Shown here: one piece after another, positions 10,382 through 33,852 of the stretch | Numbering within the stretch: the first letter of the stretch is position 1 | Layout of the letters: every line of letters starts with the position of its first letter | IMG/VR virus record: IMGVR_UViG_3300002835_000193 | Location: 1 to 60,923 of that record | Reading direction: 5' to 3' (one strand) | From: a virus | DNA length: 60,923 nucleotides | Translations under genes and position numbers: made by a program | Notes under the pieces: model-generated | Told to the model about the DNA's origin: nothing | Databases searched by the model: none | Seen by the model: the letters and a program-made list of their open reading frames with translations, nothing else

Positions 10382-10595
10382 ACCAGACATGACTCCTGAA
10401 GAAATACAAGACTATCTACGTCAAAACAGGGTGACCAAAGACATGGCAGATGAAGACTTTGCATCATATATTAAAAGATATGTAAAAGAAAATGATGATA
10501 TCTTAAATAAACTAGGATCTGATTATGACAAGAACAACATACCATATTGGGATTCTTATAAAAACGAACAGATAGAGGGTAGGGATAATGTCTAG
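10365..10595 (+). CDS. hypothetical acidic protein
   Basis: 76 residues, helical, acidic, with TPEEIQDYLRQNRVTKDMADEDF. GGAAG lies nine bases before the ATG. Overlaps the following oxygenase gene by 8 bases, so it may be translated with it. Confidence 0.6.
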   Translation: MIAWHRPDMTPEEIQDYLRQNRVTKDMADEDFASYIKRYVKENDDILNKLGSDYDKNNIPYWDSYKNEQIEGRDNV

Positions 10596-11226
10596 TTTTA
10601 TTGATATTTTAGGCGATGATATAGAGAACATAAAATATGTATATGATTTTTTAGATAAAGAAGATCTTGAATATTTAATAGAAGTTGCTAAAAAAGCAGA
10701 ATCAAGATTTAGTGGAAGTCAATTACATGTTGCCGCTAATAATCATTTAGATGATGCTTCGTTAAGTGATTTTAGAAAGTTTGGTGAAAAGTTAAATAAT
10801 AAAATATTTGATGTTGCCAAAGAAGTATATAAACAAGACTTTTTAAAAGAAACGTTTAACTTTGGATTAAATATTCATAAAGTAAACTCTTTTACAGATG
10901 CACATGTGGACATCATAGAAGATTCTCCTGGATTTCAGGAGCCTGGATTTAAAGAACCAGTCTATTTAAACTGGAGAGATGCTTGGGATGGATATTTGGC
11001 ATGCAACCTATACTTAAATGATGATTATAGTGGAGGGCAAATATATTTTCCTGAAAGAGAATACCTAACAATCAAACCTAAAGCAAACTCACTAATTATG
11101 TGGCCTGGCAACAAATATTTTATTCATGGTATTAAGAAAACAAAAATAACCAGCAGATATGTGTATGGTATTTTTATGAAATTTGCAGAGTATGATAAAT
11201 ATAATCCTAAGCAAAAAGATTTATAA
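10588..11226 (+). CDS. 2OG-Fe(II) oxygenase, prolyl-4-hydroxylase type
   Basis: 212 residues. The double-stranded beta-helix carries the iron ligands H106-x-D108 (AHVD) and H180 (FIHG), and R190 (SRY) for 2-oxoglutarate. NLYLNDDYSGGQIYFPE is the signature strand of P4H-like phage oxygenases. Such enzymes hydroxylate a substrate using O2 and 2OG; P4Hs act on proline. It is close in sequence to the leftward gene at 13449 (IDILGDDIENIK against VDVLGNDISLIK), indicating duplication. The target is unknown. Confidence 0.85.
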   Translation: MSSFIDILGDDIENIKYVYDFLDKEDLEYLIEVAKKAESRFSGSQLHVAANNHLDDASLSDFRKFGEKLNNKIFDVAKEVYKQDFLKETFNFGLNIHKVNSFTDAHVDIIEDSPGFQEPGFKEPVYLNWRDAWDGYLACNLYLNDDYSGGQIYFPEREYLTIKPKANSLIMWPGNKYFIHGIKKTKITSRYVYGIFMKFAEYDKYNPKQKDL

Positions 11227-11553
11227 TAAATTTTTAATAACTCTATTAATAATAATCTTAACCCCTCTTGATGTTATTTTATCAGCATCAAAAGTTTCAG
11301 TATAGCCACCTTGAGGCATATCCTCTTTACTTACAAAACCTTCACTTTTTGTTTTACTCTTCATCTTAGATAAGACTATTCTTTCTACCTTACGTGCTAT
11401 CGTTATGCTATCAAAATACCAATACTCGACTATTTTCCAACCATTTGATCTATGGGTAGGGTATCTAGTATTACCTATGTCGTTTATTCCTACCTTAAAT
11501 GCCCCGAATTTTTCGTGGTAAATCAAATATAAAAGGGCTGGACCTCTATGCAT
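11221..11553 (-). CDS. GIY-YIG-like nuclease domain protein
   Basis: 110 residues from the ATG at 11553. LLYLIYHEKFGAFKVGI, then RYPTHRSNGW and ARKVERIVL, follow the order of GIY-YIG domains (first strand, KVG segment, conserved Arg/His, helix with Glu). Small free-standing GIY-YIG proteins in phages are often homing or restriction nucleases. The reading from 11571 would start inside the -10 box, so the leaderless ATG is preferred. It converges with the oxygenase at 10588, overlapping 6 bases. Confidence 0.6.
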   Translation of the reverse strand: MHRGPALLYLIYHEKFGAFKVGINDIGNTRYPTHRSNGWKIVEYWYFDSITIARKVERIVLSKMKSKTKSEGFVSKEDMPQGGYTETFDADKITSRGVKIIINRVIKNLL

Positions 11554-11559
11554 ATATAG

Positions 11560-11565
11560 ATTATA
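11560..11565 (-). promoter_or_regulatory. -10 box of a leaderless promoter (minus strand)
   Basis: TATAAT on the minus strand, then six bases (CTATAT), then the ATG ending at 11553. No clear -35. Confidence 0.55.
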
Positions 11566-11606
11566 TCGCACTATGGTATACTTAAATCCTAAGAGAAAGG
11601 TACTCT

Positions 11607-11900
11607 ATGTCATTTGAACAAGGAGTAGCACATATCAGCGAATGGTATGAAAACAATGATGGTCAAACAAGAAGAGACTTTGTAATCAGAGATTTTGGAA
11701 ACTATGTTTGGCACGTAAAACAATCAGCAGACAAAGGCTCAACAGTAGTTACTGAAAATGTAGCATACCAAAGTGATCCGAACTCAGGAGAAACAAACAA
11801 ACTAGATATCTCCTATTTCTGCAACAGATGTATTAATCCAGAACTATACCAAGAATTACAGTTTACGCATGAATGCCAATGCTGTAATTTTAAATGGTAA
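11607..11900 (+). CDS. hypothetical protein with C-terminal zinc finger
   Basis: 97 residues. A beta-rich N-terminus (RDFVIRDFGNYVWHVKQ) is followed by CNRC (residues 72-75) and CQCC near 92, likely one zinc site. AAAGG precedes the ATG; a TATACT box lies about 30 bases upstream. No known family. Confidence 0.65.
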   Translation: MSFEQGVAHISEWYENNDGQTRRDFVIRDFGNYVWHVKQSADKGSTVVTENVAYQSDPNSGETNKLDISYFCNRCINPELYQELQFTHECQCCNFKW

Positions 11901-11908
11901 AACTAGGA

Positions 11909-11936
11909 TATAATTGTATTGGATAGTACGCTATCC
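11909..11936 (+). promoter_or_regulatory. -10 box with a hairpin at the predicted mRNA 5' end
   Basis: TATAAT at 11909-11914. The predicted start at about 11921 is the first base of a perfect hairpin GGATAG-TACG-CTATCC (11921-11936). The -35 is weak. A 5'-terminal hairpin can protect mRNA from decay. Confidence 0.5.
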
Positions 11937-11951
11937 AGGAAGAGACAATAA

Positions 11952-12338
11952 ATGGGAATGTATATTCAAGAAAAAGATGACAAGGTAAAGCAATCATTTA
12001 AGCCTAAAAAATGGCAGCCTATGGTTCTTAATGGAAAAGATGCAATTGTTCCAACGCAAGAAGGTAAATGCTTTTGGGAAGCACAACTACACTTGACTCT
12101 ACCTAAAACAGGTAGACCAACATATGTAAAAATGAATTACTCAAGAGACTATAAAGGTAAAAACGATACCACTGGAACAAATACATACGCTATTCCTGCC
12201 GACATTGAATCTGTACAGTTTACACTTTCATGGTACTTTAATGCTAATCCAAGCACACCAATTTCGTGTATGGTTTATCACAATGGATCAACAGACATTG
12301 TTTCTGAAATAAGACAATTCAAAGGAATGATATTATAA
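11952..12338 (+). CDS. hypothetical beta-rich protein
   Basis: 128 residues. Mostly beta pattern with an HLTLPKTGRPTYVKMNYSRDY segment and IPADIESVQFTLSWYFNA. It resembles a small jelly-roll or carbohydrate-binding-like domain, common in phage particle or lysin-associated proteins. AGGAAGAGACAATAA precedes the ATG, and the stop overlaps the M23 peptidase start by one base. The coupling suggests a partner of the peptidase, which is an inference. Confidence 0.65.
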   Translation: MGMYIQEKDDKVKQSFKPKKWQPMVLNGKDAIVPTQEGKCFWEAQLHLTLPKTGRPTYVKMNYSRDYKGKNDTTGTNTYAIPADIESVQFTLSWYFNANPSTPISCMVYHNGSTDIVSEIRQFKGMIL

Positions 12339-12727
12339 TGGGATTACCAATCAAAGATGGAAAGATTACTACCGCTTACAAAAAGTTAGGCAAGATGTGG
12401 TCAAAAGGGTATCATACTGGGGTCGACTTTGCAGTTAAGACAGGTACACCAGTAATTGCAGTTGCAGATGGAAAAATTGAACCAGCAAACTGGGGAAAAT
12501 CATATGGAACTCAAGCAGTACAAAAAGTTGAAGGCGGATGGGTAATCTATGCACATCTTTCTAAACTAGATGTAAAAGCAGGAGATAAAGTAACTAAAGG
12601 ACAACAAATAGGATTAAGTGGAAACACAGGAAACTCTTCTGGTCCACACTTACATTTTGAAATGAGAGACAATATTCGTTGGTCTGCTGGTAAAGATTTA
12701 GATCCACAAGTAATATTAGATAAATAG
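12338..12727 (+). CDS. M23 (LytM-type) peptidase, probable endolysin or virion lysin
   Basis: 129 residues, a bare M23 domain. The zinc and catalytic residues are visible: H26-xxx-D30 (YHTGVDF), H73 (YAHLS), and H104-x-H106 (PHLHFE). The GDKVTKGQQIGLSGNTGNSSG segment is typical. M23 enzymes cut peptidoglycan cross-bridges. No signal peptide or binding domain is present, so it needs a holin or works from the virion. Holin candidates are at 19517 and 39863. Confidence 0.9.
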   Translation: MGLPIKDGKITTAYKKLGKMWSKGYHTGVDFAVKTGTPVIAVADGKIEPANWGKSYGTQAVQKVEGGWVIYAHLSKLDVKAGDKVTKGQQIGLSGNTGNSSGPHLHFEMRDNIRWSAGKDLDPQVILDK

Positions 12728-12742
12728 AAAAGGAATGATAAA

Positions 12743-13456
12743 ATGTCTGGCAAATTAATTGTAGGCTCAATGCCTATAGGTCACAACCAAGATTTAAGTC
12801 AAAGAATGATTGATGCTCTTCGTGATAGTCAAATTATATACACTGATTACATGCCAGACAATTTATATGCTATATTAGATTTTTACAAAATTCAGGCAGG
12901 CGAATGTGATATAAGAATATTAAAAAGCACTAACACAATGTTTGCAGACGAATATCAAATAAAAGAATGCATTGATTTTATAAAAGAAGGAAGAACAGTT
13001 CTATTAGTTGCTGGAGAAGGTCAAATAGGAATGGCAGATCCTGGACCTCAATTTATCCAAGCATGCATAGAAAATAATTTACTTTACACAGTATATCCTG
13101 GACCAAGTGCTTTTGCCACAGCGTTTGTTGCAAGTGGAATAACTAATGGAGATTGTTTTATATCTTGTAATATGGAATATCCAGAAAAAACTATTGAATA
13201 CTTTAAAGATCAAGATACTCCTTTAGTAATACCAATATGGCATTATAAACTAGACGGTGTCTTAAAGTTATTAGATGAAAAGTTTAAATTTACTAATGGT
13301 AAAACTAAAAAAGTTACACTCTGTATTGACATGACCACAAATGAAGAAATGTTTGTTACTGAGTATGTAGAGGATATTTTAAATAGTGAAAAACTTAAAC
13401 ACTTAAAAGAATATCCTAAGATAATGCTTGTAATTAGTGATTTTGTTACTAGATAG
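12743..13456 (+). CDS. second tetrapyrrole-methylase-fold protein, RsmI-like
   Basis: 237 residues. It keeps the family layout: IVGSMPIGHNQDLSQRMIDAL (first strand and loop), VLLVAGEGQIGMADPGPQFIQA (middle block), and YPGPSAFATAFVASGITNGD (PGPS block). It is more divergent than the protein at 9045, with GEGQIGMADP replacing the usual DAGTPLISDP. It may have lost or changed the SAM reaction. AAAAGGAATG precedes the start. It converges with the gene at 13449, overlapping 8 bases. Confidence 0.75.
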   Translation: MSGKLIVGSMPIGHNQDLSQRMIDALRDSQIIYTDYMPDNLYAILDFYKIQAGECDIRILKSTNTMFADEYQIKECIDFIKEGRTVLLVAGEGQIGMADPGPQFIQACIENNLLYTVYPGPSAFATAFVASGITNGDCFISCNMEYPEKTIEYFKDQDTPLVIPIWHYKLDGVLKLLDEKFKFTNGKTKKVTLCIDMTTNEEMFVTEYVEDILNSEKLKHLKEYPKIMLVISDFVTR

Positions 13457-14057
13457 TATACTTATCAAAATCTTTAAACTTTATTGATCTATAAACATTG
13501 TATCTATTACCATCTATTGGATCTTTAACACCATGAATAAAGTTTTTGTTACCAGCCCACATAACTAAAGAGTTGGCCTTTGGTTTAAATTCATAATTTC
13601 TTTCAGGGAAATATACTTGACCACCAGAATAATCATCATTAATATATATATTACAGGACAAGTATCCATCCCAAGCATTTTTCCAATCATGTAACTCTTC
13701 TTCTTTTGGCTTCTGCCTGTCAAGTCCTTCAATAATATCAGTATGAACAGGAGTAATTGCTCCTGGGGTTGCTATTGTTGCAGCAAGCATATGGGTATTA
13801 TCATCAACAAATTCCATACCATATAGTTCTGTTGCTGTCTCAATTATTTTTTTATTGTATTTATTTTGTATTTCAATAATCTCTGGAGTAATAACTTTAT
13901 CTATTTCTTCTTGAATATGTTGACCATCTTGTGGTTGTGCTGCTGATACCCAATCTAAAAACTTTAACATAATGTTATAGTCGTCAACATCCATAAAGTT
14001 TTCTTTAGTTTTAATTAAACTTATATCATTACCTAAAACATCTACAAAAGAGTTCAT
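13449..14057 (-). CDS. 2OG-Fe(II) oxygenase, prolyl-4-hydroxylase type
   Basis: 202 residues. Iron ligands H105-x-D107 (VHTD) and H175 (FIHG), 2OG-binding R185 (NRY), and the CNIYINDDYSGGQVYFPE signature strand. Close paralogue of the gene at 10588. It overlaps the upstream oxygenase at 14054 by 4 bases (ATGA), so the pair is co-translated. Predicted to hydroxylate an unknown, possibly prolyl, substrate. Confidence 0.85.
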   Translation of the reverse strand: MNSFVDVLGNDISLIKTKENFMDVDDYNIMLKFLDWVSAAQPQDGQHIQEEIDKVITPEIIEIQNKYNKKIIETATELYGMEFVDDNTHMLAATIATPGAITPVHTDIIEGLDRQKPKEEELHDWKNAWDGYLSCNIYINDDYSGGQVYFPERNYEFKPKANSLVMWAGNKNFIHGVKDPIDGNRYNVYRSIKFKDFDKYTI

Positions 14058-14770
14058 TTAGTGTGATAGTCTTTGTTAAGATCTTTTATGTATTGCAAGT
14101 TTGCTTTATATGGAAAAGGTATTTTTTCTAATCTTGTATCTAACTCTCTTTGGGTTATGTTAGAGAAAAATGCTACTATTGTATATCTTGGATTACCTGA
14201 ACCTATGTCATGTATTTTATGTTCATATATGTATGATGCTGGAAACATAAATAATTGTCTTGCTTTTGGTTTAATTTTTATTCCAAAGTTTATAAATTCT
14301 AATTCTCCACCAGCATAATCATCGTTTGGATAATATACCATTGCAACAGTTCTTGGTGTTCCGTATGAATCATCTGGATGCATACCAAAATAATCACCTT
14401 CAGTGTATTTACTTATTCTCCAGTATTCCCTACTTTGTGGGTCTAGATCATAGTGCCACAAATATGAATCAATAACTTCTTCAAAAACCTTGCATAGTTC
14501 TAAATCTTTTTCAGGTTCTTCAAAGGTAATCCAAGTACTTACACCTTTTTTACCAACCTCTTTGGGGATCTGATTTCCTTCTGAATCATGAATATAATCT
14601 TCTCTAATAAAACTGCCATCTTCATCAAGTTTTTTAATATAGTCTAGTCCTTCTGGCCAAACCTCGTTATATATGTGTATTCCTGGTGCTGGTTGTTCGT
14701 GTTGAAAGTTATTGCCTTTACGACTTTGTGTTATATTTAATTTGGCATTAGCCAATTTAATGGGATCCAA
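14054..14770 (-). CDS. 2OG-Fe(II) oxygenase, prolyl-4-hydroxylase type
   Basis: 238 residues. Ligands H131-x-D133 (MHPD), distal His at 184 or 187 (EHKIH), R195 (NPRY), and the strand YYPNDDYAGGELEF. A longer N-terminal region than its neighbours may bind substrate. The start is TTG at 14770, seven bases after AAAGG; the N-terminus MDPIKLANAK follows. It is more divergent than the 10588/13449 pair. Confidence 0.83.
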   Translation of the reverse strand: MDPIKLANAKLNITQSRKGNNFQHEQPAPGIHIYNEVWPEGLDYIKKLDEDGSFIREDYIHDSEGNQIPKEVGKKGVSTWITFEEPEKDLELCKVFEEVIDSYLWHYDLDPQSREYWRISKYTEGDYFGMHPDDSYGTPRTVAMVYYPNDDYAGGELEFINFGIKIKPKARQLFMFPASYIYEHKIHDIGSGNPRYTIVAFFSNITQRELDTRLEKIPFPYKANLQYIKDLNKDYHTK

Positions 14771-14800
14771 CCTTACACCTTTCTCTTAGTATTAATTATA

Positions 14801-15406
14801 TCATGCATCTTTTTTTATGTATATGTCAGAATACCCGCAATATCCCAGGGCATAACCAACAACAGACCAATCTGAATGAGTGTTTAAAAATTTATTTACA
14901 GCCTCTACACACTCATATTCTTGTTGCTCAAACCATCCCCAAAATGTATAATCGTTAATTCCTATTACTCCACCATCATTAATTATCTTATTAGACTCAA
15001 CTAAATAACTATATACTGATTCATAATCATGAGCAGCATCAACATATATGTAATCAAATTTTTGATCTAATGTTTTTATTGTGCTATCTATGTTGCCAGC
15101 CACGGTCATAACATTTTTATCTTTAAGCAAGTTTTTTACATATTGTTCATGATTTTCTGCAGTCCACCTACCGTATCTAGCACATGGCTCATTAAAAAAA
15201 TCTAACAAATATGAAACATTAAATTTTTTTCTATCTAGCAACCATTTAGAATAGTCTCCACCACCTGCTCCTAGTTCTAAATAAGAGCCTTCATTTGGTA
15301 AAATAGATAAAACATTATCATCAAATCTATCAGCAAACAGTCTTGCCTTAGTTAGTTTAGATGAATGTATATAATCAAATCTTTTATTTTCATTACGAAA
15401 GTCCAT
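14801..15406 (-). CDS. class I SAM-dependent methyltransferase
   Basis: 201 residues from the ATG at 15406 (MDFRNENKRF), preceded by AAAAGG; the longer frame to 15526 would run into the divergent gene. YLELGAGGGDYSKWLL is motif I, FDYIYVDAAHDYESV resembles the Methyltransf_24 metal-binding strand, and NDGGVIGINDYTFWG follows. This subfamily often methylates sugars or small O-acceptors in glycan clusters, which fits the glycosyltransferase and nucleotidyltransferase next to it. Confidence 0.8.
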   Translation of the reverse strand: MDFRNENKRFDYIHSSKLTKARLFADRFDDNVLSILPNEGSYLELGAGGGDYSKWLLDRKKFNVSYLLDFFNEPCARYGRWTAENHEQYVKNLLKDKNVMTVAGNIDSTIKTLDQKFDYIYVDAAHDYESVYSYLVESNKIINDGGVIGINDYTFWGWFEQQEYECVEAVNKFLNTHSDWSVVGYALGYCGYSDIYIKKDA

Positions 15407-15465
15407 ATATCCTTTTCTATTAATACTATTATAGCACTCGTGATACAATGGGATAAAGGATTTTT

Positions 15466-16098
15466 GTGAATAAGGTAGCCGTAATATCAATTGCTTGGGG
15501 CAACAAGTATAAGCACTTTGTGCCATCTTGGTACGATCACGTTCAGTCTCTTAAGATTAAACCAGACGAAATAATAATTGCATACCATCCAGATGATGAT
15601 ACTGGAGTAGAGAATTTAGATGTTAAATTAGTAAAATGTTATGAAAGATCATATTCTAAAATGTTAAATGCGGCTATAGAACAAGCCAACTCAGATTGGA
15701 TAATTCAGTGCCCACTTGATGACATGATGCTTCCTAACGCTTTAGATTTTGTTAATTTTGTAGAAAAAGATATAGATGTAGTCTTGACATCAAGAAGAAC
15801 TACCAAAGGTGACGTTCACATTGGAGACTGGAGTTCACTAACAAAAAAAATGGAAGATCACAGAGTTTGTCATACCAGTCCATTTAAAAAATCTTTATGG
15901 AAAAAAGTTAAAGGTTTTCCAGACTATATTCTTGCTGATTGGGCCTTCTTTTTGTTGGCTTACAAAGAAAATATAAAAGTAAAACATTGGGGAGAAATTA
16001 CAGTATTGTCGAATGTTAGTGATAGTTCTTTGGGTGCATCTGCTGGAGAAGATGAATGGAACAAGATAATTAAACTAAGACAGGAATTAAATATATGA
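15466..16098 (+). CDS. glycosyltransferase (GT-A fold, family 2-like)
   Basis: 210 residues. AVISIAWGNKYKHFVPSWYDHV at the start, IIIAYHPDDD, then SKMLNAAIEQANSDWIIQCPLDDMMLP with the DD metal motif near residue 84. GFPDYILADWAFFLLAYK near the C-terminus is typical of the acceptor helix. Starts at GTG after AAAGGATTTTT. The next gene overlaps by 4 bases, so the two form one operon for making and transferring a sugar. Confidence 0.8.
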   Translation: MNKVAVISIAWGNKYKHFVPSWYDHVQSLKIKPDEIIIAYHPDDDTGVENLDVKLVKCYERSYSKMLNAAIEQANSDWIIQCPLDDMMLPNALDFVNFVEKDIDVVLTSRRTTKGDVHIGDWSSLTKKMEDHRVCHTSPFKKSLWKKVKGFPDYILADWAFFLLAYKENIKVKHWGEITVLSNVSDSSLGASAGEDEWNKIIKLRQELNI

Positions 16099-16739
16099 TA
16101 GGTATATTACCAGCATCTGGAAAAGCAGAAAGATTAAAAGGAATACCTAAATTTGCAATACCAACAATGAATAATGAAACCCTTATACAAAGACATGTAA
16201 GAATGATGCGTGATCATGTTGATAGTATAAAAATTTGTACAACCAAAGATTGGTTTAGGTTAATAGAAACATTATGTCCCAACATAGAGTTGATAGAACT
16301 AGAGTCATCTACAATGAACCATGCAGTAAAAGTATTGGGAACTTCAGATAGTATTATTGGCATGCCTGATACATTTTATAAAGGAGAAAACCCATATAAA
16401 GAATTATCAAAAATTAATGATGATATTGGAGTTGCATTATGGAAATGTCCTACAAACCTTCGTGGTCGAGTAGGTCAAGTAAATATTAAAGATAACAAAA
16501 TTATAAACATGTCTGATAAAAACCCTATGTGTGATTATCCTTTTGTATGGGGTGCAATGAAACTTTCTAAAGATGCAATCAATAGTTTAGATCCAAACAC
16601 ATCTCATCCTGGTATATGCTTGCCAACCCTTATAGATAAGTTTTCCCACTCTACCTGTGTAATAGATGGAGAGTATATAGATTGTGGGACTCCTGAAGGC
16701 ATTAGAGACATGTTAATGTCAGATAGCGATATGATATAA
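16095..16739 (+). CDS. sugar-1-phosphate nucleotidyltransferase-like protein
   Basis: 214 residues. MIGILPASGKAERLKGIPKFAIP is the nucleotide-binding start of the NTP_transferase family (GxGxR-x-PK pattern in relaxed form), with IGMPDTFYKGENPY as the metal-binding Asp strand and a C-terminal YIDCGTPEGIRDML, as in glucose-1-phosphate thymidylyltransferases. It probably activates a sugar phosphate for the glycosyltransferase in front of it. The exact sugar is not predictable. Confidence 0.82.
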   Translation: MIGILPASGKAERLKGIPKFAIPTMNNETLIQRHVRMMRDHVDSIKICTTKDWFRLIETLCPNIELIELESSTMNHAVKVLGTSDSIIGMPDTFYKGENPYKELSKINDDIGVALWKCPTNLRGRVGQVNIKDNKIINMSDKNPMCDYPFVWGAMKLSKDAINSLDPNTSHPGICLPTLIDKFSHSTCVIDGEYIDCGTPEGIRDMLMSDSDMI

Positions 16740-19801: not shown

Positions 19802-20524
19802 CTATGAGTAATTTTTTTTGGACCAAAAGTTTTTTTTGTATCCATTTTCCATTACCTTTTTAATACCGTAAGACATTTTTTTAAATTGTTTATCATTATA
19901 CTCTAATTCTTGAGAAGTCCAATCTTCTCTTTTAATAAATATCATTTGATATATTGGAGTTCCAGCAGGTATCAAACCTTCAAACCCTTTCTTTACCATA
20001 AAAGGTATTGGCCCATTAACTGACCATTTGTCTGTGTCTATAATACCATTCATTGTTAAAAATGGTAGATCTAATCTGTTTGCTGGATGAAAGTATAATG
20101 TGCTATACCCCGCTGGAGTCTGAGGTTCCCACTGAGTTATCCAATGAAATTCGTTAGTATAGTAGCCATCAAAGTTAGGAAACACTCTTCTAGAATCAGT
20201 GTCTTGTGCTCTTGTAGACAATGGTTTAATTGGACCAGCCCACTTATAATTTACAATATCATTACCTGTATTTGGATCAACACCAAGATTAATTATTTCA
20301 ACATCACATATTAATTCTTGTGTATACCCTGAAGTTAATGCATCTAAGAATGGTGGACATTTCTTTGCTGTACCGTCGTCCCTATTACCTCTTAAAGTTG
20401 GTTGAAGAGTAGGCATATCCTTAAACCATTTTGGCAAATAGTTTTTTGCAGACTGTGGTCTTGGGGTCATAAACTCTACATCCTGGCTAGATGGAATAAA
20501 GTTTACCTCTTGACTATTGGTCAT
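19802..20524 (-). CDS. DUF6065-like phage protein
   Basis: 240 residues. The sequence runs LPKWFKDMP, CPPFLDALTSGY, TPAGYSTLYFHPANRLDLPFLTMNGIIDTDKW, then KKGFEGLIPAGTPIYQMIFIKREDW. The same blocks occur in the proteins at 33839 and 34603, so this is a family with three copies here. I associate it with DUF6065, a cupin-like family of unknown activity; that name is from recall. ATGA overlap with the next gene upstream. Confidence 0.7.
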   Translation of the reverse strand: MTNSQEVNFIPSSQDVEFMTPRPQSAKNYLPKWFKDMPTLQPTLRGNRDDGTAKKCPPFLDALTSGYTQELICDVEIINLGVDPNTGNDIVNYKWAGPIKPLSTRAQDTDSRRVFPNFDGYYTNEFHWITQWEPQTPAGYSTLYFHPANRLDLPFLTMNGIIDTDKWSVNGPIPFMVKKGFEGLIPAGTPIYQMIFIKREDWTSQELEYNDKQFKKMSYGIKKVMENGYKKNFWSKKNYS

Positions 20525-22145: not shown

Positions 22146-22877
22146 TTATCTCAACTCTCTTTTATTATATATATCAATATCTTCTGGTGTTCCTAAGCAA
22201 ATAAACTCTTCATTTTTAATATAAAATGGAAGAATATCAATTTGATTTTCAATTAAGTAGTTATAAGTTTCTGATATATATGTTTCTAAGATATTATTTT
22301 GTTTAAAATTTTTAACCAACATGTTACCAGAATCAATAAATAACTTGCCATACTTCCAATAATGTATTCCCATTAAACAATCATCACTAATTGCTTTTTT
22401 TTCCTTTACTTGAATTATACGATTATTTTTAATTTTTGCAAAACTATGTTTTTCATTAGTTGATTTATGTAAAACCAATGCGGCATCTGGATCTTTATCT
22501 GCTATTTCATCTAAAAACAATTGTGAATTCCATTTCATAAGTTGGTCACAATTTGTAATAATTAAAGGATTGTATTGGTCTATATGTTCAAGAGCAAGCA
22601 AACATGTTTCGGTAGGCCCGCTTGTGCTTTTGTCTGATCTTATCTCTACATAATCTGTACAAAGTTTGTTAAATATATCTGTAAGTTTTTTATTATACTC
22701 TTGATTGTCATAATTTCTTGTTATAAAAATATACCTTCCTTTAATATTTAAAGATTCAATTGCATGTTCTATAAGTGTTTTTTCGTCAACCTGTATCAAT
22801 GGTTTTGGAACATTGGTTTGATCTTTAAATCTTTGACCTAAGCCCAACATGGGTATAATTATATTTATCTTACTCAC
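22146..22877 (-). CDS. sugar-phosphate nucleotidyltransferase-like protein
   Basis: 243 residues. INIIIPMLGLGQRFKDQTNVPKPLIQVDEKTLIEHAIESL is the NTP_transferase start with the GxGxRF-x-PKPL motif. ITNCDQLMKWN carries the metal-binding Asp, and CLGTPEDIDIYN closes the domain. It probably makes an NDP-sugar for the GT61 protein next to it (8-base overlap). It is distinct from the shorter relative at 16095. Confidence 0.85.
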   Translation of the reverse strand: MSKINIIIPMLGLGQRFKDQTNVPKPLIQVDEKTLIEHAIESLNIKGRYIFITRNYDNQEYNKKLTDIFNKLCTDYVEIRSDKSTSGPTETCLLALEHIDQYNPLIITNCDQLMKWNSQLFLDEIADKDPDAALVLHKSTNEKHSFAKIKNNRIIQVKEKKAISDDCLMGIHYWKYGKLFIDSGNMLVKNFKQNNILETYISETYNYLIENQIDILPFYIKNEEFICLGTPEDIDIYNKRELR

Positions 22878-25838: not shown

Positions 25839-26489
25839 CTATTTTATTGGTGTTATGGAAAATGCAGTTTTTTTACAAGGTTTTAATCCTGCTGTAATTG
25901 CATCTTTTTCTTTTTTATCAACAGACAATGACCATCTAACTTTAATTGATACCCAATTAGTTAAATACTCACAAACATATGCTTTGTTTGTTGGTAACCA
26001 ATCTGCTGGATCTCTATCTGATTTTGATCTATTAGATGCTCCAGTCACTGCAATTAAATGTCTTAAATCAGTTTGATCATTTGCATACATCTCACGTTTT
26101 TTTGCATCCCATTTACTTGCACCAGAATCCCATGACTCAGCCAAGGGAACCATATGATCTACATCAAGTTTTCCTGCTTCAGTTACAGTAGTATTATCGT
26201 AGATGCTTAACCACTTACCGCCTGTAATTGCACATTTTTTATCAACAGTTGGTTTTATAATTGCTTCTGAAATAATAACTGCTTTTCTAGAATCACAACC
26301 TTTGCCTACTCCAACCCAATGTTTAAACTGTTCTCTCTTATATCCTGTACGAACTTCATCAGCAACCTTTAGAGTGTTTAATGCTGTTAAGGCATCTTTG
26401 TACTTAGTATCTACAGCATTTGCTGAGATAGTGTTTAAAGATAAAACTGCTGCACAAACCATAGTGAGTGCTGTTTTTTTATTAATCAT
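25839..26489 (-). CDS. secreted HNH-type nuclease (DUF1524/GmrSD C-terminal-like)
   Basis: 216 residues. A Sec signal peptide (KKTALTMVCAAVLSLNTISANA, cleavage near residue 25) precedes a domain with LDVDHMVPLAESW (D111-H112) and LIAVTGASNRSKSDRDPADW (N153), the HNH pattern of DUF1524 proteins; cysteines at 65, 86, 173 and 204 may form disulfides. Extracellular nucleases of this type are common in actinobacteria. A phage copy may degrade released DNA, or come from the host. Starts six bases after GGGAG. Confidence 0.85.
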   Translation of the reverse strand: MINKKTALTMVCAAVLSLNTISANAVDTKYKDALTALNTLKVADEVRTGYKREQFKHWVGVGKGCDSRKAVIISEAIIKPTVDKKCAITGGKWLSIYDNTTVTEAGKLDVDHMVPLAESWDSGASKWDAKKREMYANDQTDLRHLIAVTGASNRSKSDRDPADWLPTNKAYVCEYLTNWVSIKVRWSLSVDKKEKDAITAGLKPCKKTAFSITPIK

Positions 26490-27943: not shown

Positions 27944-28129
27944 TTATTTTTTTCTTTTATCTGTTGAGTAAAAACCATCACCGTTAAAAACACTAGCGAC
28001 TGAATCATATTTTCGAACCAGGGATATGTTGCATTTTTCACAATCATACCCTGGATCGTTTTCCCTAATTGAGCGAACTTTTACGTATTCTGTTTGACAT
28101 TTTTTACATATATATTCATAGATGGGCAT
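27944..28129 (-). CDS. FmdB-type zinc ribbon protein
   Basis: 61 residues. MPIYEYICKKCQTEYVKVRSI followed by CEKCN, exactly the FmdB putative regulatory protein layout (CxxC...CxxC with an MPxYEYxC start), then a short tail. Its role is unknown; it overlaps the gene upstream by one base. Confidence 0.85.
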   Translation of the reverse strand: MPIYEYICKKCQTEYVKVRSIRENDPGYDCEKCNISLVRKYDSVASVFNGDGFYSTDKRKK

Positions 28130-28353
28130 TAGGCCACCTTTTTACCAAACCTTGACCAGGCTCTTTCATGTAAGAAAAATCCAAGCATTTCACATGCTGT
28201 ATAGATTATTGCAAAAGATCCAGCATATTCCCAGTGTGCTTCACCAGTAATTGCCTTTTCAAAAAAATATACTAACGTACCAACAAAACCTATGTGAACA
28301 ATAGGCCAACTAACTGTCTTATATAAACTTTTTTTCTTTGAATCTTGTGTCAT
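28129..28353 (-). CDS. DUF2061-like membrane protein
   Basis: 74 residues. KTVSWPIVHIGFVGTLVYFF is the first membrane helix, AGSFAIIYTACEMLGFFLHERAWSRF the second with the conserved E...HERxW end, as in DUF2061. AAGGAGATAT precedes the ATG and a TATAAT box is upstream. Function of the family is unknown. Confidence 0.75.
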   Translation of the reverse strand: MTQDSKKKSLYKTVSWPIVHIGFVGTLVYFFEKAITGEAHWEYAGSFAIIYTACEMLGFFLHERAWSRFGKKVA

Positions 28354-28386
28354 ATATCTCCTTAATATATTATATCACAAAAAATG

Positions 28387-29331
28387 CTAATTACCTATTA
28401 TGCTTTTTCTTATTGTCCAATAACTTTCTATCATATCTATCTCTTCATAAAAATCTATAATGCTTCTTGTATATTCCAAAAAGGTAAAATATTTGTTTCT
28501 ACCAAGTATCATTATTTTTTTAACTTCTTTTGTCATATCGTCATCATCAAGAACCCATATCCTAGTCCAATGGTTTGGATTGTTGCGATCAGTACCAACA
28601 AACTTCCACCATCTTTCATCATATGGAAATGAATACTTAATATCGTTACCAGCATAATGAACGATAGCATCAGCATATGGTGCAACCACATCATAGTCTT
28701 GACAATATACTGCTATAGATTGCTCTGGTTCTTCAAAAGGAAATCTGTGATATGAAGGAAATTCTATTGCTTTAATGTCAGAACATTTTGCAAAAATAAA
28801 ATTACAAGAAATATAATAATTTTTAAAATATTTATCATTAACCTTATCTTTATCTAGTGCTACGTCAAACTCAACTACCTCTCCATGTAAATCTAATTCA
28901 TTAAAAGTTCCATCTACAACCCACCTTGTTTTCCAATTACGTTTACCTTGAACTTTGGCTGTAGCCTGTCTAGATATAATTCTTTTTTCATTATTTTTTG
29001 TTAACTCTTCTATGTCATCCATTAGAGTAGTATCCCAGTTAAGTTCAAAATCTGCGTGGGCATCTATACCTAAAAAGTACTGCTCATCCTCTATTAGACC
29101 CCTTATAGCCTCTCTAATGCCTACTATGCCTGGCTTTCCATCTGCTATGTCTTGATCTCTAACTATCCTTACATTGTTAAACATTGATAGATCTGGCTCT
29201 TCTTTATAGTTTAAACCAAGTCCAAATACAATATTTTCAGGGTAGTATGCAGTGTCTAAAATATGATTCATAGTATCTACCAAATGCACATCTTCCCATG
29301 CTGGTATAGATACAAATATTTTTTTATTCAT
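28387..29331 (-). CDS. GT60-like GlcNAc-transferase (pfam11397-type)
   Basis: 314 residues from the ATG at 29331 (AAGGATAATAAG upstream; ATGA overlap with the carbamoyltransferase). KKIFVSIPAWEDVHLVDTMNHIL starts the GT-A fold; FLGIDAHADFELNWD (D90-A-H92, WD at 99-100) matches the DxH metal motif and following WD of GT60 enzymes. In Dictyostelium and other protists GT60 (Gnt1) adds GlcNAc to hydroxyproline of Skp1. The acceptor here is unknown, but six P4H-type oxygenases in the window make a hydroxyproline acceptor worth testing. Confidence 0.72.
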   Translation of the reverse strand: MNKKIFVSIPAWEDVHLVDTMNHILDTAYYPENIVFGLGLNYKEEPDLSMFNNVRIVRDQDIADGKPGIVGIREAIRGLIEDEQYFLGIDAHADFELNWDTTLMDDIEELTKNNEKRIISRQATAKVQGKRNWKTRWVVDGTFNELDLHGEVVEFDVALDKDKVNDKYFKNYYISCNFIFAKCSDIKAIEFPSYHRFPFEEPEQSIAVYCQDYDVVAPYADAIVHYAGNDIKYSFPYDERWWKFVGTDRNNPNHWTRIWVLDDDDMTKEVKKIMILGRNKYFTFLEYTRSIIDFYEEIDMIESYWTIRKSIIGN

Positions 29332-30761
29332 CTTATTATCCTTGCTCCGTATGTTTGTTCCCAATTAATTATATCACTCTCGTCATTAAGCAATGGTTGA
29401 CCCTTAATATTTAAACTGGTATTAAGCAAAACTGGTACCTTTGATATTTTGTACCATCTGGATAACAGGTCGTATAGTCCAGGATGCTGATCTTTATTTA
29501 CAGTCTGAACCCTAGAGGTACCATCTTTATGAACAACGGACGGTATCAAATCTGGCTTTAAACACTTAACTGCATACTGCATATAAGGACTTGTAAAATT
29601 CATATCAAACCATTTACTTGCATGCTCTTCCATCACAACTGGTGCAAAGGGTCTAAAGAGTTCACGCTTTTTAATATTATTAACCTTATCTTTAATGTTT
29701 GGATCTCTAGGGTCTGCCAATATACTTCTATTACCTAATGCTCTTGGTCCATATTCTGCTCTTCCACTTGCTATCGCCGCAATTCCACCATTCACTATTT
29801 CATTTAATGCTGAATCTACTGGATATTTATCTCCTAAATCATAACCAAGAAACGGTGTCTTAAAGTCAACATGCTTTCCATACAAGGCTGCCGCAGCACC
29901 CAAAGAACTTCCAGCATCTCCAGGGTTTGGCATAATCCATATATCATCAAATATATTCCACAACAATGTATTAGCAGAACAATTAAGAGCACACCCACCC
30001 ATAAAAACTAATTTATTTTTCTTAGTTAATCTTTTTGCCATATACATAAAATCTATTAACTTTATTTGATAAACTTCTTGTACTGCTGCGGCAATATCAA
30101 ACCTATCTTGCTCAGTTATTTCTGATCCCCAATCAAAAATTCCTTTATGAAAATTATATTTTTGATATCCAATTGATGGAAAGTATTCTAAAACCTTTTT
30201 AAGATATTTTTGTTTATCTCCATAGGCAGCCATGCCCATCATTATGTACTCTTCTTGGTTTGGTATCAGACCAATAAGTTGAGTAAACGCAGAATAAAAT
30301 AAACCAAAACTAAAGGGATAATTATCTTTGTACATTAACTTAATATCATTTCCTTCTCCAGCCCAAATGGTAGAGGTATTAAATTCTCCAATTGAATCAA
30401 GTACTACTATCACTGCATCGTCAAACTTGCTAGTATAGTACCCTGCTGCTGCATGCGAGTAGTGATGTTTAAAATTAGTTCTTGGTATTGCATTAAGATA
30501 AGTATGTTCAAACCAAGGCTTACCGCCACCAAAACCACCACAAGTTTTAACTCTTAGTTTTTTTAAAAATGGATTTTCATAGTAGGCTATTTGATCTGGA
30601 ATCCCATACTCCAATGCATTATCTATTAAACCCTTGTTGGTAAACCAATCATTTTTAACTTTGCTATATCTTTCTGCGTGTCCAGAAAATAACACCTTAT
30701 CATCTTTAATTAAAGATATAGAAGCATCATGTGTTGTTTCATTAATTCCCATTATCAACAT
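29328..30761 (-). CDS. carbamoyltransferase (NodU/CmcH family)
   Basis: 477 residues, near full length for the family. MGINETTHDASISLIKDD opens the ASKHA-type domain, FKHHYSHAAAGYY is the conserved His cluster, VVLDSIGE and MGMAAYGDKQKYLKK follow, and the C-terminal YrdC-like half has AEYGPRALGNRSILADPRD and FRPFAPVV. These enzymes make an O-carbamoyl group from carbamoyl phosphate and ATP on sugars, antibiotics or, in some phages, hydroxymethylcytosine. AGGAGG precedes the start. Neighbours are a GT60-like protein and an SGNH hydrolase. Confidence 0.93.
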   Translation of the reverse strand: MLIMGINETTHDASISLIKDDKVLFSGHAERYSKVKNDWFTNKGLIDNALEYGIPDQIAYYENPFLKKLRVKTCGGFGGGKPWFEHTYLNAIPRTNFKHHYSHAAAGYYTSKFDDAVIVVLDSIGEFNTSTIWAGEGNDIKLMYKDNYPFSFGLFYSAFTQLIGLIPNQEEYIMMGMAAYGDKQKYLKKVLEYFPSIGYQKYNFHKGIFDWGSEITEQDRFDIAAAVQEVYQIKLIDFMYMAKRLTKKNKLVFMGGCALNCSANTLLWNIFDDIWIMPNPGDAGSSLGAAAALYGKHVDFKTPFLGYDLGDKYPVDSALNEIVNGGIAAIASGRAEYGPRALGNRSILADPRDPNIKDKVNNIKKRELFRPFAPVVMEEHASKWFDMNFTSPYMQYAVKCLKPDLIPSVVHKDGTSRVQTVNKDQHPGLYDLLSRWYKISKVPVLLNTSLNIKGQPLLNDESDIINWEQTYGARIIR

Positions 30762-31572
30762 TTATAGCCTCCTGTAACTGAAACTCAGCCTCTTTAAACC
30801 AAGCATAATGAACTGCTTCGCTTGGATGGGTACCGTCATTTCCTATGATTGTCATGTTTTTTTCTTTATTTTGTATAAACCAAAATACATTTTTTGAAAA
30901 TCGTTCTTTATCTACATCATAATAACTATCAAATGATTCTTTCATTGTTTTATTCATATATGTTTCAAACTTTTGTAGATCAACATTTATAAAATCAGTT
31001 ATTCCAGGAATTGGATCAGACCAACTAGTAGAAAAAATTTTAGCATTATTAGTTTTACAGATATCTTCCAAAATACTATACAGATTAAAAACAAAAATAT
31101 CTAATATTTCTCCATTTTTAATATCGTCCATTGATTTGTGACTAGTATTGAACTTATGCCAATCCCTTCCCCAATTTGGAAAAAGAATAAAAATAAAATC
31201 TGGACAACCATATTTAGCAATATACTTTAACACGTTTATCATTATTTCTATTGAAGAGAATCCAGAACAGCCAATATTAAAATAACCAGAACATTCATTA
31301 TCCTTGTTCATTTTATTATAAAGTTTGTATGACCAACTTTTTTTAATATCATTTACACCACACCCAACAGTAATTGAGCATCCAGCAAACAGTATGTTTG
31401 TTTTTCTAGGATCTACTGTTTTTAGTTTGTCTGAAATATAATTATTATGATCTTTTTTATTTAAATTCGAATCAAGAAATGGTCCAATTATATCTTTATT
31501 CTTGTGTAACAAGTATTTAAAATGTTGAGGTCTTGTTGTTTTATCATTATCCATGATATCTTTATAATTCAT
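30742..31572 (-). CDS. SGNH/GDSL-like hydrolase
   Basis: 276 residues. LFAGCSITVGCGVNDIKKSWSYKL is block I with the nucleophile Ser, YFNIGCSGFSSIEIMINVLKYI block II, and NDGTHPSEAVHYAWF the D-x-x-H block V. The family removes or adds acyl groups on glycans and lipids. It overlaps the carbamoyltransferase by 20 bases. A relative lies at 44494. No clear ribosome site before the ATG; upstream DNA is nearly all A/T. Confidence 0.8.
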   Translation of the reverse strand: MNYKDIMDNDKTTRPQHFKYLLHKNKDIIGPFLDSNLNKKDHNNYISDKLKTVDPRKTNILFAGCSITVGCGVNDIKKSWSYKLYNKMNKDNECSGYFNIGCSGFSSIEIMINVLKYIAKYGCPDFIFILFPNWGRDWHKFNTSHKSMDDIKNGEILDIFVFNLYSILEDICKTNNAKIFSTSWSDPIPGITDFINVDLQKFETYMNKTMKESFDSYYDVDKERFSKNVFWFIQNKEKNMTIIGNDGTHPSEAVHYAWFKEAEFQLQEAINVDNGN

Positions 31573-31656
31573 ATTAATATATAAAATCTCTTTTTTTAAA
31601 ATGTTTTTTATTTTTTCTTAACCAAAAATAAAACTTAATTTTATATATTATTTGTT

Positions 31657-32331
31657 TCATTCTTGACCAGTAGAGTTTCTAATCATGTGAGATGGCACAT
31701 TATGAAACCAAGTTGGTAATGCATATCTTGGTCCTTTTAAAACAGAATCAACTTCGTGAACATATAAAAAGTTGGATGGAAAAAACACAATGCTACCTGC
31801 TGATGGCTTAATGGTTACATTTGATTGTTTAAAGGTTATCTCTCCGCCAACGTAATCATCATTAAGGTATAACAATACAGATAAAACTCTGGTACTCACC
31901 CCCTGGTCTTGATGTGGTGGTAGATATCCAGACTTATCATATCTTAATAAACTAGTTGCGTGTTCTTTTGCTTTAACATTTTTTTGTGCAAATGGATATA
32001 ACTTTGTTGAATAGTGCAATAGTGCTTCATCAATTGATCCATGTATTCTAGAAGATATGTTTCTTTGTTCATCTTTAAAAGCATCATCTTCTGATATCTG
32101 TTCCATAGTTGGAATAAATTTTTGCCAACAAAATATTTCGTTTGTTCCAGCACTATCATTAATCCAAGGAGACCACGGTTGAACAACTGTTCTTTGTTTA
32201 ATATCTGGGGAACTATTTAAAAACCTTTCTTCTAAGTCTTCTATGTTTCTTATAATCTGATCAGTATTTTTTACAATATTTTTATAATATACCAAACCTA
32301 AATCTAATACTTCATGATCTATTGAAGTCAC
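31657..32331 (-). CDS. 2OG-Fe(II) oxygenase, prolyl-4-hydroxylase type
   Basis: 224 residues. H140-x-D142 (PHQD), H192 (YVHE), R202 (PRY); VLLYLNDDYVGGEITF is the signature strand. It overlaps the upstream oxygenase at 32312 by 20 bases, giving a tandem pair beside the GT60-like genes. Probable hydroxylase of an unknown protein or small-molecule substrate. Confidence 0.85.
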   Translation of the reverse strand: MTSIDHEVLDLGLVYYKNIVKNTDQIIRNIEDLEERFLNSSPDIKQRTVVQPWSPWINDSAGTNEIFCWQKFIPTMEQISEDDAFKDEQRNISSRIHGSIDEALLHYSTKLYPFAQKNVKAKEHATSLLRYDKSGYLPPHQDQGVSTRVLSVLLYLNDDYVGGEITFKQSNVTIKPSAGSIVFFPSNFLYVHEVDSVLKGPRYALPTWFHNVPSHMIRNSTGQE

Positions 32332-32938
32332 GCTCTGCAGCCTCTCTTTCTAATGGATACTGTACGGCTTGCCAAGTTGGATTCTTATCTTCCCCCAAGA
32401 AATCTGGATCTGCATGTTCTGGAAGTGATGTGTGCATATATAGTGCAGTGTATCTATGACCTTCAGTTACTTCAGTAATACCGTGAATATATTCTGTACC
32501 AGAACTTGGAAAGAATACTGCAGAATATTTTTTAGGCTGGTATACAAAATCTTGATTAGGAAAAAATATTTTACCACCCTGGTATTCTGGAGTTTCATTT
32601 AAATAAATTATTGTACTAAATTCTATAAATGGTTCTGGTCCTTGTGCATCTAAGTGTAGTCCACCTCTTGTACCTTTTGTCCAATGTGATCCAAAACCTT
32701 TAAACACATATATTGGATTAAGGAACCCATTATAGGATCTGTGTATTTCGTTAGACTTATTGCCATACTTAATCATAATATCCATGACCGTTTTATTGTA
32801 TGGTAATGATGTGCCACCATATCTTTTACTATAGTATTCTGGATACGGATTAACTTCTGATGGGTTGTGTTGTTCCCTTATTAGGGTATCTGCGTCTTCC
32901 TTGGTTATGAAATTATCCACTACCGCGATTCTATGCAT
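32312..32938 (-). CDS. 2OG-Fe(II) oxygenase, prolyl-4-hydroxylase type
   Basis: 208 residues. H95-x-D97 (LHLD), H152 (YIHG), R162 (HRY); IIYLNETPEYQGGKIFFPNQDF is the core strand pair. TGGVHxD-like spacing of the first metal pair is as in collagen-type P4H domains. Tandem with the oxygenase at 31657. Confidence 0.85.
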   Translation of the reverse strand: MHRIAVVDNFITKEDADTLIREQHNPSEVNPYPEYYSKRYGGTSLPYNKTVMDIMIKYGNKSNEIHRSYNGFLNPIYVFKGFGSHWTKGTRGGLHLDAQGPEPFIEFSTIIYLNETPEYQGGKIFFPNQDFVYQPKKYSAVFFPSSGTEYIHGITEVTEGHRYTALYMHTSLPEHADPDFLGEDKNPTWQAVQYPLEREAAERDFNRS

Positions 32939-32967
32939 ACTGTTCCTGTCTTTTCTCTATTATATCA

Positions 32968-33852
32968 TTAATCAATATAATTTATTTTGGTCATAAATCT
33001 TTTAGAGTCTATACCGTCAAACTCTGAATCTGTTGGGTTATAAAAAACATCGTTAATTTCAAAGGGCAGGGGGTGTGTTTTTTCTATATCCAAGCCATTG
33101 ATGTTATAAAAATCTGAAATAGGAGACATGAGGGGAAGACCTATATCTATATAATCATTTTTTTCATTTTTAATTAACTTAATCATTTGATTGTAATTGT
33201 GATATTTAGAAAAAACTGTATAAAGCGTTTCAAGGTTATTCAGCCCTTCCTTTTTATAAAAATTATCTGGACAACAGAATACTTTTATATTATTAGCGTG
33301 ATACATTAAAGACAGGACTTCTTCCTCTCCATAGTATTTTAAATATGAGGGGTATCCAATGTTGCGTAACGTTTCGGTATGTCCAAATATAAGATCTCTG
33401 CCAACAAACTTACTACTAGTAAACTTATCCACTACCTCTTCTTCTTTTTTAAAATAAAATATTCCATCTTGTTTTAATTTATTTTTATTTTTAATAGATA
33501 TTATCGACCCAGAGTTTGGCAAAGCATTAATAAGTTCTTCATCCCAATTATCTTTTAAAAATATATTATCAGACATAAACATAGTATATGTAAACTTAGA
33601 CTGTTCTAATAATTGATTTTTGTAAAAACATGGGCCAAGAATACTATCCCAAAGTATATGCTGATAACCACAATTCTCTATCTTATCAAAATAATCTTGC
33701 CTTGTAAGGGTATGTTGATCAAAGATATGTAAATATATTGCATTTTTTTTAGATGACTTTTCTAATAAATTTTCTACAACTTCCTTTAACATTTTATTTT
33801 TATATGAATATATTACTACATCAATTGGATTTGGAAGATCAGTCTTGCTCAT
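32968..33852 (-). CDS. GT60-like glycosyltransferase, second copy
   Basis: 294 residues from the ATG at 33852 (MSKTDLPNP); the longer frame would overlap the upstream gene by 120 bases. IDVVIYSYKNKMLKEVVENLL, YLHIFDQHTLT, ILWDSILGPCFYKNQLLEQ, MFMSDNIFLKDNWDEEL follow the GT60 order, with SDN replacing the usual DxH at residues 94-96 and WD at 103-104. GYPSYLKYYGEEEVLSL is the C-terminal acceptor region. Less certain than the copy at 28387. Confidence 0.6.
   Translation of the reverse strand: MSKTDLPNPIDVVIYSYKNKMLKEVVENLLEKSSKKNAIYLHIFDQHTLTRQDYFDKIENCGYQHILWDSILGPCFYKNQLLEQSKFTYTMFMSDNIFLKDNWDEELINALPNSGSIISIKNKNKLKQDGIFYFKKEEEVVDKFTSSKFVGRDLIFGHTETLRNIGYPSYLKYYGEEEVLSLMYHANNIKVFCCPDNFYKKEGLNNLETLYTVFSKYHNYNQMIKLIKNEKNDYIDIGLPLMSPISDFYNINGLDIEKTHPLPFEINDVFYNPTDSEFDGIDSKRFMTKINYID

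Follow-up and report, generated by a model that had tools for sequence, protein, structure and literature searches.

A conserved phage gene cassette combining two prolyl-hydroxylase-type oxygenases, GT60-related transferases and a carbamoyltransferase, and its possible role in protein modification

In the Skp1 pathway, PhyA hydroxylates Skp1 and Gnt1, an enzyme of glycosyltransferase (GT) family GT60, then adds GlcNAc (PMC6939170, in excerpt). Among viruses, cyanophages have numerous 2-oxoglutarate (2OG) oxygenase genes, whose viral role, according to an excerpt of PMC9602691, has not been specifically investigated; an excerpt of PMC9301287 likewise states that viral use of prolyl 4-hydroxylase (P4H) "remains cryptic." Here, we analyze a 60,923-base IMG/VR virus record, IMGVR_UViG_3300002835_000193 (G+C, 33.6%; referred to at its full length as the window), in which an earlier note had proposed that P4H-type oxygenases and GT60-like transferases act together. 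The DNA polymerase of the window is nearest to those of Streptomyces phages, e.g., Ankus and BillNye (54-55% identical from end to end); it is therefore likely that the host is actinobacterial, and the record probably represents an uncultured phage of actinobacteria. The best explanation for genes 28387-35331, which we hold with moderate confidence, is that they form a phage protein-modification cassette in which prolyl hydroxylation of the prolyl hydroxylase domain (PHD) type would be followed by glycosylation and carbamoylation of a phage or host protein. The genes concerned are listed below (cut-offs in bits: PF13640, 27; PF11397, 21; PF13472, 32.9; PF19541, 26.6).

28387..29331, minus strand: GT60a, a PF11397 glycosyltransferase and accessory cassette member, with DxH (D90, H92) and EE (200-201)
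29328..30761, minus strand: NolO-like O-carbamoyltransferase (CarbT), cassette core; PF16861 and PF02543, PHROG 1601 at E 5.1e-107
30742..31572, minus strand: SGNH/GDSL-like protein; PF13472 sub-threshold at 15.9 bits, and synteny
31657..32331, minus strand: P4H5, a prolyl-hydroxylase-type 2OG oxygenase; PF13640 at 61.6 bits, H140-x-D142, H192, R202
32312..32938, minus strand: P4H6, a prolyl-hydroxylase-type 2OG oxygenase; PF13640 at 34.8 bits, H95-x-D97, H152, R162
32968..33852, minus strand: GT60b, a diverged GT60 relative without DxH, cassette core; hhalign and synteny
33839..34603, minus strand: DUF6065a, with a possible dUTPase-like fold, cassette core; PF19541 at 22.8 bits, under the cut-off of 26.6
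34603..35331, minus strand: DUF6065b, a paralogue of DUF6065a; alignment A4 and synteny
35324..35998, minus strand: conserved gene bordering the cassette upstream; synteny

The cassette genes of the window overlap or sit at most 84 bases apart, and, as the earlier note had observed, the oxygenase genes at 31657 and 32312 and both transferase genes lie together within 6 kb. Relatives of GT60a were found at 19 viral loci, and the order DUF6065b-DUF6065a-GT60b-P4H6-P4H5-SGNH-CarbT-GT60a was kept in 16 of them as far as each locus reaches, with extra SGNH-like open reading frames (ORFs) in some; in the remaining three (L014, L016, and L018), the contig ends before P4H5. One of the 16 is L021, at 46% GT60a identity and with a second, closer GT60a copy at the opposite end; the order was also kept in L063 and L069 (26-50% GT60a identity over L021, L063, and L069). 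L063 and L069 came from a search for relatives that took the best 80 of 151; another took the best 80 of 136. Starting from P4H6, we took the best 80 of 177 relatives and counted the 54 with at least 2 kb upstream and at least 5 kb downstream, excluding 26 with short flanks; at 90% identity, the 54 P4H6 sequences fall into 35 clusters, and at 80% into 18. P4H5 was present in all 54 loci, the GT60b family in 51, at least one DUF6065 gene in 51, and CarbT in 46. These counts indicate that the core of the cassette consists of DUF6065, GT60b, P4H6, P4H5, and CarbT, and that GT60a and the SGNH-like protein (of which some relatives have several diverged copies) are accessory; the carbamoyltransferase and the DUF6065 pair are core members that were missing from the earlier note's list. 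GT60a was also considered as a core member and was ruled out, as it occurs in 13 of the 54 P4H6 loci.

The predicted structure of DUF6065a, a low-confidence model with a mean predicted local distance difference test score (pLDDT) of 52.9, resembles dUTPase and dCTP deaminase folds (Foldseek best E, 2e-3; VIA best Z, 7.6). By eye, its sequence shows a dUTPase-like G-[IV]-x-[DE]-x-D ... KGTPI.Q motif. Searches of solved structures with profile A6 and with DUF6065 were each without a significant sequence match. The window holds three DUF6065 paralogues, at 33839-34603, 34603-35331, and 19802-20524.

The earlier note had treated six 2OG oxygenases in the window as parts of one system. All six match PF13640 where it had placed them, one of them (13449-14057) under the cut-off (25.4 versus 27 bits), and all six keep the metal-binding His pair, the Asp, and the 2OG-ligand Arg in a six-row alignment (first row: H106, D108, H180, and R190). 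The single system did not survive the comparison of gene order, since only 31657 and 32312 are part of the conserved arrangement; the other four are as follows.

10588..11226, plus strand: 2OG oxygenase outside the conserved cassette; PF13640 at 30.9 bits
13449..14057, minus strand: 2OG oxygenase outside the cassette; PF13640 at 25.4 bits, under the cut-off
14054..14770, minus strand: 2OG oxygenase outside the cassette; PF13640 at 42.4 bits
18836..19486, plus strand: 2OG oxygenase outside the cassette; PF13640 at 40.9 bits

The active-site residues of P4H5 and P4H6 are invariant over 15 aligned rows. Against the sequences of solved structures, the P4H5/P4H6 profile matched prolyl 3-hydroxylase 1 (P3H1; 8e-11), a bacterial P4H (7.5e-7), PKHD, and EGLN1, with Tet-like enzymes as weaker matches. 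P4H5, the sole oxygenase of the six that was modelled, gave a predicted structure with a pLDDT of 89.1 and a predicted template modelling (TM) score (pTM) of 0.87. Its top Foldseek match was 6t8m, the hypoxia-sensing prolyl hydroxylase of Dictyostelium (E 4.0e-9; TM 0.55-0.60), practically equal in rank with PHD2, the EF-Tu P4H, and P3H1, and 2OG enzymes that do not bear the name of prolyl hydroxylase (3dkq and 6n1f) made up 4 of the 50 matches listed. With VIA, the model aligned with PHD2 and P3H1 over 179-190 residues (Z 16.1; root mean square deviation, 3.1-3.5), and all 50 matches listed were prolyl hydroxylases, which does not show that other families differ in fold. The Dictyostelium enzyme DdPhyA binds metal by H191, D193, and H266 and 2OG by R276 (PMC7864055, in excerpt). 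The spacing of ten between its distal His and Arg (H266/R276) equals that in P4H5 (H192/R202) and P4H6 (H152/R162). In collagen-type P4Hs, a Lys serves as the 2OG ligand; this Lys, about ten residues past the distal His, was found in none of the six window oxygenases, all of which have Arg. From the fold of P4H5 and the active-site residues of both, we infer that P4H5 and P4H6 are PHD-type prolyl hydroxylases, and they probably hydroxylate proline.

Both transferases had been described as GT60-like in the earlier note, and a hidden Markov model (HMM) search bore this out for the one at 28387: GT60a scores 49.5 bits against PF11397 (cut-off, 21; E 5.8e-13) and has the DxH motif which, replacing DxD, marks GT27 and GT60 (PMC7185993, in excerpt). 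The GT60a ORF spans 28387-29364, with a probable ATG at 29331, and D90, H92, W99, D100, E200, and E201 are invariant over 20 diverse rows; a sequence search of solved structures with GT60a returned nothing significant (one row, E 0.33). The same HMM check failed for 32968, as GT60b scores 15.7 bits over 38 residues, below the cut-off of 21, and is without DxH. One orthologue, L069:3472-4338, is narrowly over the PF11397 cut-off (21.5 bits), and across the family the DxH position is occupied by SD[DN] in many rows or by other letters. Profile-profile comparison places GT60b as a distant relative of GT60a (hhalign probability, 97.3). Its ORF is open to 33960, and the start equivalent to 33852 is found in most aligned orthologues. 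Judged from its sequence, the activity of GT60b is uncertain. The GT60 acceptors named in excerpts of PMC7185993 and PMC6939170 are on polypeptides.

The mechanism that we propose draws on the genes present, their conserved order, their families, and a good predicted fold for P4H5. In it, P4H5 and P4H6, PHD-type by their active-site residues and, for P4H5, by predicted fold, would hydroxylate one or more prolines of a protein. A GT-A-type transferase would then put a sugar on the new hydroxyl, this being GT60b in most cassettes and here GT60a additionally; for a cassette transferase acting on the P4H-made hydroxyl, we judge the case to be evenly balanced. By analogy, the product would be GlcNAc on hydroxyproline. 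The NolO-like carbamoyltransferase, perhaps together with the SGNH-like protein, would decorate the sugar, although we place the carbamoyl group on that sugar with some doubt. The DUF6065 pair may have an auxiliary or acceptor role. The acceptor would be a protein of the phage or could be one of the host, and a Thr-Pro (TP)-rich stalk is possible, not obligatory. What stands of the earlier proposal of hydroxylation followed by glycosylation is the conserved pairing of P4H and GT60-like genes, with which separate phage and bacterial systems agree; what had to change is that only two of the oxygenases belong, and that GT60b and not GT60a is nearly always linked (51 versus 13 of 54 loci).

One of these separate systems, cluster B (L065, L072, and relatives), comprises 49 phage loci, of which we counted the 45 whose upstream sequence exceeds 1.5 kb and excluded four in which it is short. 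A P4H ORF ends less than 400 bases upstream of a gene for an HPAT-like/O-FucT/GT60-type transferase in 39 of the 45, and clustering these 39 P4Hs at 90% identity gives 12 groups; the six loci without an upstream P4H are L385, L387, L409, L411, L413, and L426. A GT60 match was present in 34 of the 45 loci, 29 of which have the upstream P4H, and most of the 11 loci without a GT60 match are cut by the contig end. All eight cluster-B transferases scanned have O-FucT and PF11397 domains; the N-terminus is over the cut-off for HPAT (hydroxyproline arabinosyltransferase) in L065, L381, and L385 (the last without an upstream P4H), just under it in L401, weak in L412, and without a match in L072, L388, and L406. 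The P4H of L072 resembles P4Hs of solved structure (E 1e-21), and the ligand residue is Lys in all eight cluster-B P4Hs inspected (some placements by eye). A PLOD-type GT (PF25342) is also encoded nearby in L072, and the neighbours of L065 resemble, by eye, tail sheath and tube genes. As a candidate for hydroxyproline glycosylation, L065:373-4796 with L381-L427 is cleaner than the window.

In bacteria, HPAT, GT60, and P4H domains, all over cut-off, occur in one chain in three proteins from metagenome-assembled genomes (two titled Gammaproteobacteria).

L240:7149-10673: HPAT-GT60-P4H fusion; domain matches over cut-off
L241:7161-10763: HPAT-GT60-P4H fusion; domain matches over cut-off
L247:625-4449: HPAT-GT60-P4H fusion; domain matches over cut-off

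By eye, the C-termini of L240 and L247 contain an apparent further 2OG domain. Scanning bacterial genome contigs with profile A2 gave no loci, and scanning with profile A8 gave 79, from the best 80 of 178 GT60 relatives. A P4H was present in 11 of the 79 loci, where PF13640 density would predict 0.43 (Poisson, 1.5e-12), a figure that takes its density from 30 of the 79 genomes and its positives from a different HMM/phmmer set, has its expectation raised by the fact that 10 of the 11 positive loci lie inside those 30 genomes, and ignores kinship (the three fusions are alike, as are L301 and L305); one positive locus, L259, belongs to a genome in which PF13640 has no match. As cluster B and the fusions have the Lys-type P4H, they support the logic of the reaction and not the exact enzymes of the window. 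Tentatively, we suggest that phages hold at least two hydroxyproline-glycosylation systems: one in actinophage-like genomes, in which a PHD-type double oxygenase, a GT60-derived transferase, and CarbT would yield a carbamoylated sugar on hydroxyproline, and one in other uncultured phages, with a Lys-type P4H and an HPAT-like/O-FucT/GT60 multidomain transferase, bacteria having HPAT-GT60-P4H in one chain.

Linkage of GT60 to CarbT also recurs. XacN1 and RAS14, both jumbo phages, have a CarbT gene immediately after GT60 (L206:6992-10709 and L208:6995-10812), further phage GT60 loci contain nine distinct ORFs for CarbT, and two bacterial loci have one each. NodU and NolO act on GlcNAc, and with this recurrent linkage, carbamoylation of a sugar would be the simplest role for CarbT.

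The Pro/Thr-rich ORFs that had been named as candidate substrates are present in the window.

38166..39086, minus strand: candidate substrate with an apparent signal peptide and a Pro/Thr linker; orthologues in several cassette loci
40628..41869, minus strand: Thr-Pro-rich stalk protein, candidate substrate; Pro-rich here

For orthologues of 38166, Pro content was examined in G007 only. Like the 40628 stalk, its counterparts in G007 and G002 are Pro-rich, but that of G003, a genome with the cassette, is a Pro-poor coiled coil (the counterparts in G002 and G003 were assigned by position and by scores of 16 and 45 bits). The stalk was therefore dropped as a conserved substrate, its positional orthologue in G003 being without Pro richness, and because G003 carries the cassette all the same, a TP-rich stalk as an obligate substrate was ruled out. 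Searches for Skp1 (PF01466) and for HPAT each found 0 of 5 cassette records, yet the control genomes gave no match either, so neither search shows an absence.

The Pro-poor stalk of G003 is one of several findings that weigh against hydroxylation followed by glycosylation in this cassette. GT60a is absent from 41 of the 54 P4H6 loci, and L343, L365, and L368 have neither transferase, with a methyltransferase-like gene upstream of P4H6. GT60b, without DxH and under the PF11397 cut-off, may be inactive or act elsewhere. Although 6t8m is the top Foldseek match of P4H5, it is not among the 50 VIA matches listed, and the structural matches thus do not favour PhyA over other prolyl hydroxylases. The strongest linkage to a transferase involves the Lys-type P4H, not the Arg type of the window. 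Among 141 phage GT60 loci (L060-L200, some sharing a contig, with 99 distinct GT60 sequences), 134 are without a P4H in the locus, two of these being cut cassette relatives, and the seven with a P4H all belong to the cassette or to cluster B; a viral GT60 thus does not need a P4H. Of 17 contigs of the other GT60 kind (G008-G024, 28-272 kb), one had a PF13640 match, and neither XacN1 nor RAS14 had any. GT60 also has a Thr-acceptor member, the polypeptide alpha-GlcNAcT of Trypanosoma cruzi (PMC6939170 and PMC3769586, in excerpt), so hydroxyproline is not the sole option, and a TP-rich ORF is present in 54 of the 134 P4H-less phage loci versus 0 of the 7 with a P4H (a comparison within GT60 loci only). 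For P4H-less loci with TP-rich ORFs, these sequences possibly reflect direct Thr glycosylation of virion proteins. Extended to the window as mucin-type O-glycosylation, in which the GT60s would act directly on Thr or Ser of TP-rich virion or secreted proteins and the oxygenases would be unrelated, this explanation is very unlikely in our view, as GT60b, and here also GT60a, share one gene run with P4H5 and P4H6 and the G003 stalk is a Pro-poor coiled coil despite the cassette.

We also weighed the possibility that the cassette enzymes remodel a cell-surface glycan, modifying host envelope polysaccharide or lipid and, for example, blocking superinfecting phages. Sugar-type genes do lie outside the cassette (GT61 at 22870 and an NTP-transferase at 22146, over cut-off; 16095, 15466, and 7331, sub-threshold; a methyltransferase at 14801), and the carbamoyltransferase family includes the sugar-modifying enzymes NodU and NolO. 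The 2OG genes of cyanophage S-SCSM1 lie among GDP-sugar genes, which its authors class as cell-wall genes (PMC9602691, in excerpt). We nevertheless regard glycan remodelling as unlikely, since P4H5 is like protein-acting prolyl hydroxylases in fold and sequence, and polymerase, flippase, and nucleotide-sugar synthesis families were unmatched in the cassette genes scanned (eight of the nine, all but 35324). If P4H5 and P4H6 instead hydroxylated only a host translation factor or ribosomal protein, like the Pseudomonas P4H with EF-Tu, the transferases and CarbT would be separate; such a role fits the presence of the bacterial P4H-EF-Tu complex 4iw3 among the structural matches of P4H5 and the pairing of the two oxygenases in all 54 loci, with transferases and CarbT in fewer, but it seems quite unlikely to us given that the window genes overlap or nearly touch and that GT60b accompanies the P4H pair in 51 and CarbT in 46 of the 54. 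DNA hypermodification, with an oxygenase-hydroxylated base being glycosylated or carbamoylated as in 5-carbamoyloxymethyl-dC, could draw on sub-threshold PF12851 Tet_JBP matches to two window oxygenases, on likewise sub-threshold PF20691 TAGT matches to three cluster-B transferases, on a phage-type carbamoyltransferase that works on 5-hydroxymethylcytosine (5hmC) (PMC8670742, in excerpt), and on thymidylate synthase genes elsewhere in the genomes of XacN1 and RAS14, which have GT60 and a carbamoyltransferase. Against it, no thymidylate synthase (PF00303) was found in eight records from the cassette or cluster B, several of which are fragments, and the excerpt of PMC8670742 also describes unmodified contigs in which GT genes flank carbamoyltransferases. 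We rate it as highly improbable and no lower, because several of the PF00303-negative records are fragments. Least probable of all is a small secreted or peptide natural product that is hydroxylated, glycosylated, and carbamoylated: a 2OG oxygenase, a GT, and an O-carbamoyltransferase make a natural-product tailoring set too (e.g., TobZ-type enzymes), but scans of 40 window proteins, which included no search aimed at scaffold-building families, matched no such family.

Several further observations concern neighbouring genes and related phages. The product of 39278-39799, a cassette neighbour in many loci, has by eye an Ntn-hydrolase/proteasome-like N-terminus and no Pfam match. The window also carries two TP_methylase genes in one phage (9045-9896 and 12743-13456), and its gene at 25839-26489 encodes a protein that has a GmrSD C-terminal domain and, by eye, an apparent signal peptide. 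In S-SCSM1, genes for a 2OG oxygenase, an O-fucosyltransferase, and a 2OG oxygenase are consecutive (L207:6433-8850), near carbamoyltransferase and GDP-fucose genes. A tblastn search with GT60a at 1e-5 gave zero matches in 50,697 annotated phage records, and the L061 GT60 has three matches among annotated phage records. Among the P4H-less loci of uncultured phages, L060, L061, L098, and L101 have GT60 near TP-repeat protein genes.

Glycosylation of hydroxyproline is known, best from eukaryotes (amoebae and plants). Among the papers listed by our searches of the open PMC library, judged by titles and the beginnings of abstracts, no phage hydroxylation-glycosylation system of this type appeared, nor any viral version that includes a carbamoyltransferase and a diverged GT60. 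The fixed order of two PHD-type oxygenases, a transferase, and CarbT offers a concrete, testable answer on the role of viral oxygenases. If the proposal is true, hydroxyproline glycosylation extends from eukaryotes to phages and bacteria, the protist Skp1 pathway has prokaryotic and viral counterparts, and compact or single-polypeptide enzymes are on offer for biochemistry.

Among known systems, the P4H of Paramecium bursaria chlorella virus 1 is likewise virus-encoded (a reference in PMC9301287, in excerpt); that virus infects an alga, and the enzyme alone is compared here. The window enzymes share a broad family with the phrog_61 2OG oxygenases of cyanophages, of which S-SCSM1 has many copies, but the window pair stands in a fixed gene order with a GT and a carbamoyltransferase. 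The cassette CarbT shares the PF16861/PF02543 family with the 5hmC carbamoyltransferase found by MetaGPA, whereas the thymidylate synthase partner of that system was not found in the cassette records, several of which are fragments. Plant-type hydroxyproline O-glycosylation by P4H and HPAT finds its likeness in phage cluster B and the bacterial fusions, where P4H occurs with HPAT-like and GT60 domains, and the window oxygenases differ from it in being of the Arg type. Like the Skp1 pathway of PhyA and Gnt1 in Dictyostelium and Toxoplasma, the cassette has an HxD...H-x9-R oxygenase, with a PhyA-type structure as the top Foldseek match, and a PF11397/GT60 transferase with DxH (GT60a); it differs from that pathway in having two oxygenases, in the lack of DxH in its tightest-linked transferase (GT60b), in the addition of CarbT and DUF6065, and in being encoded by a virus.

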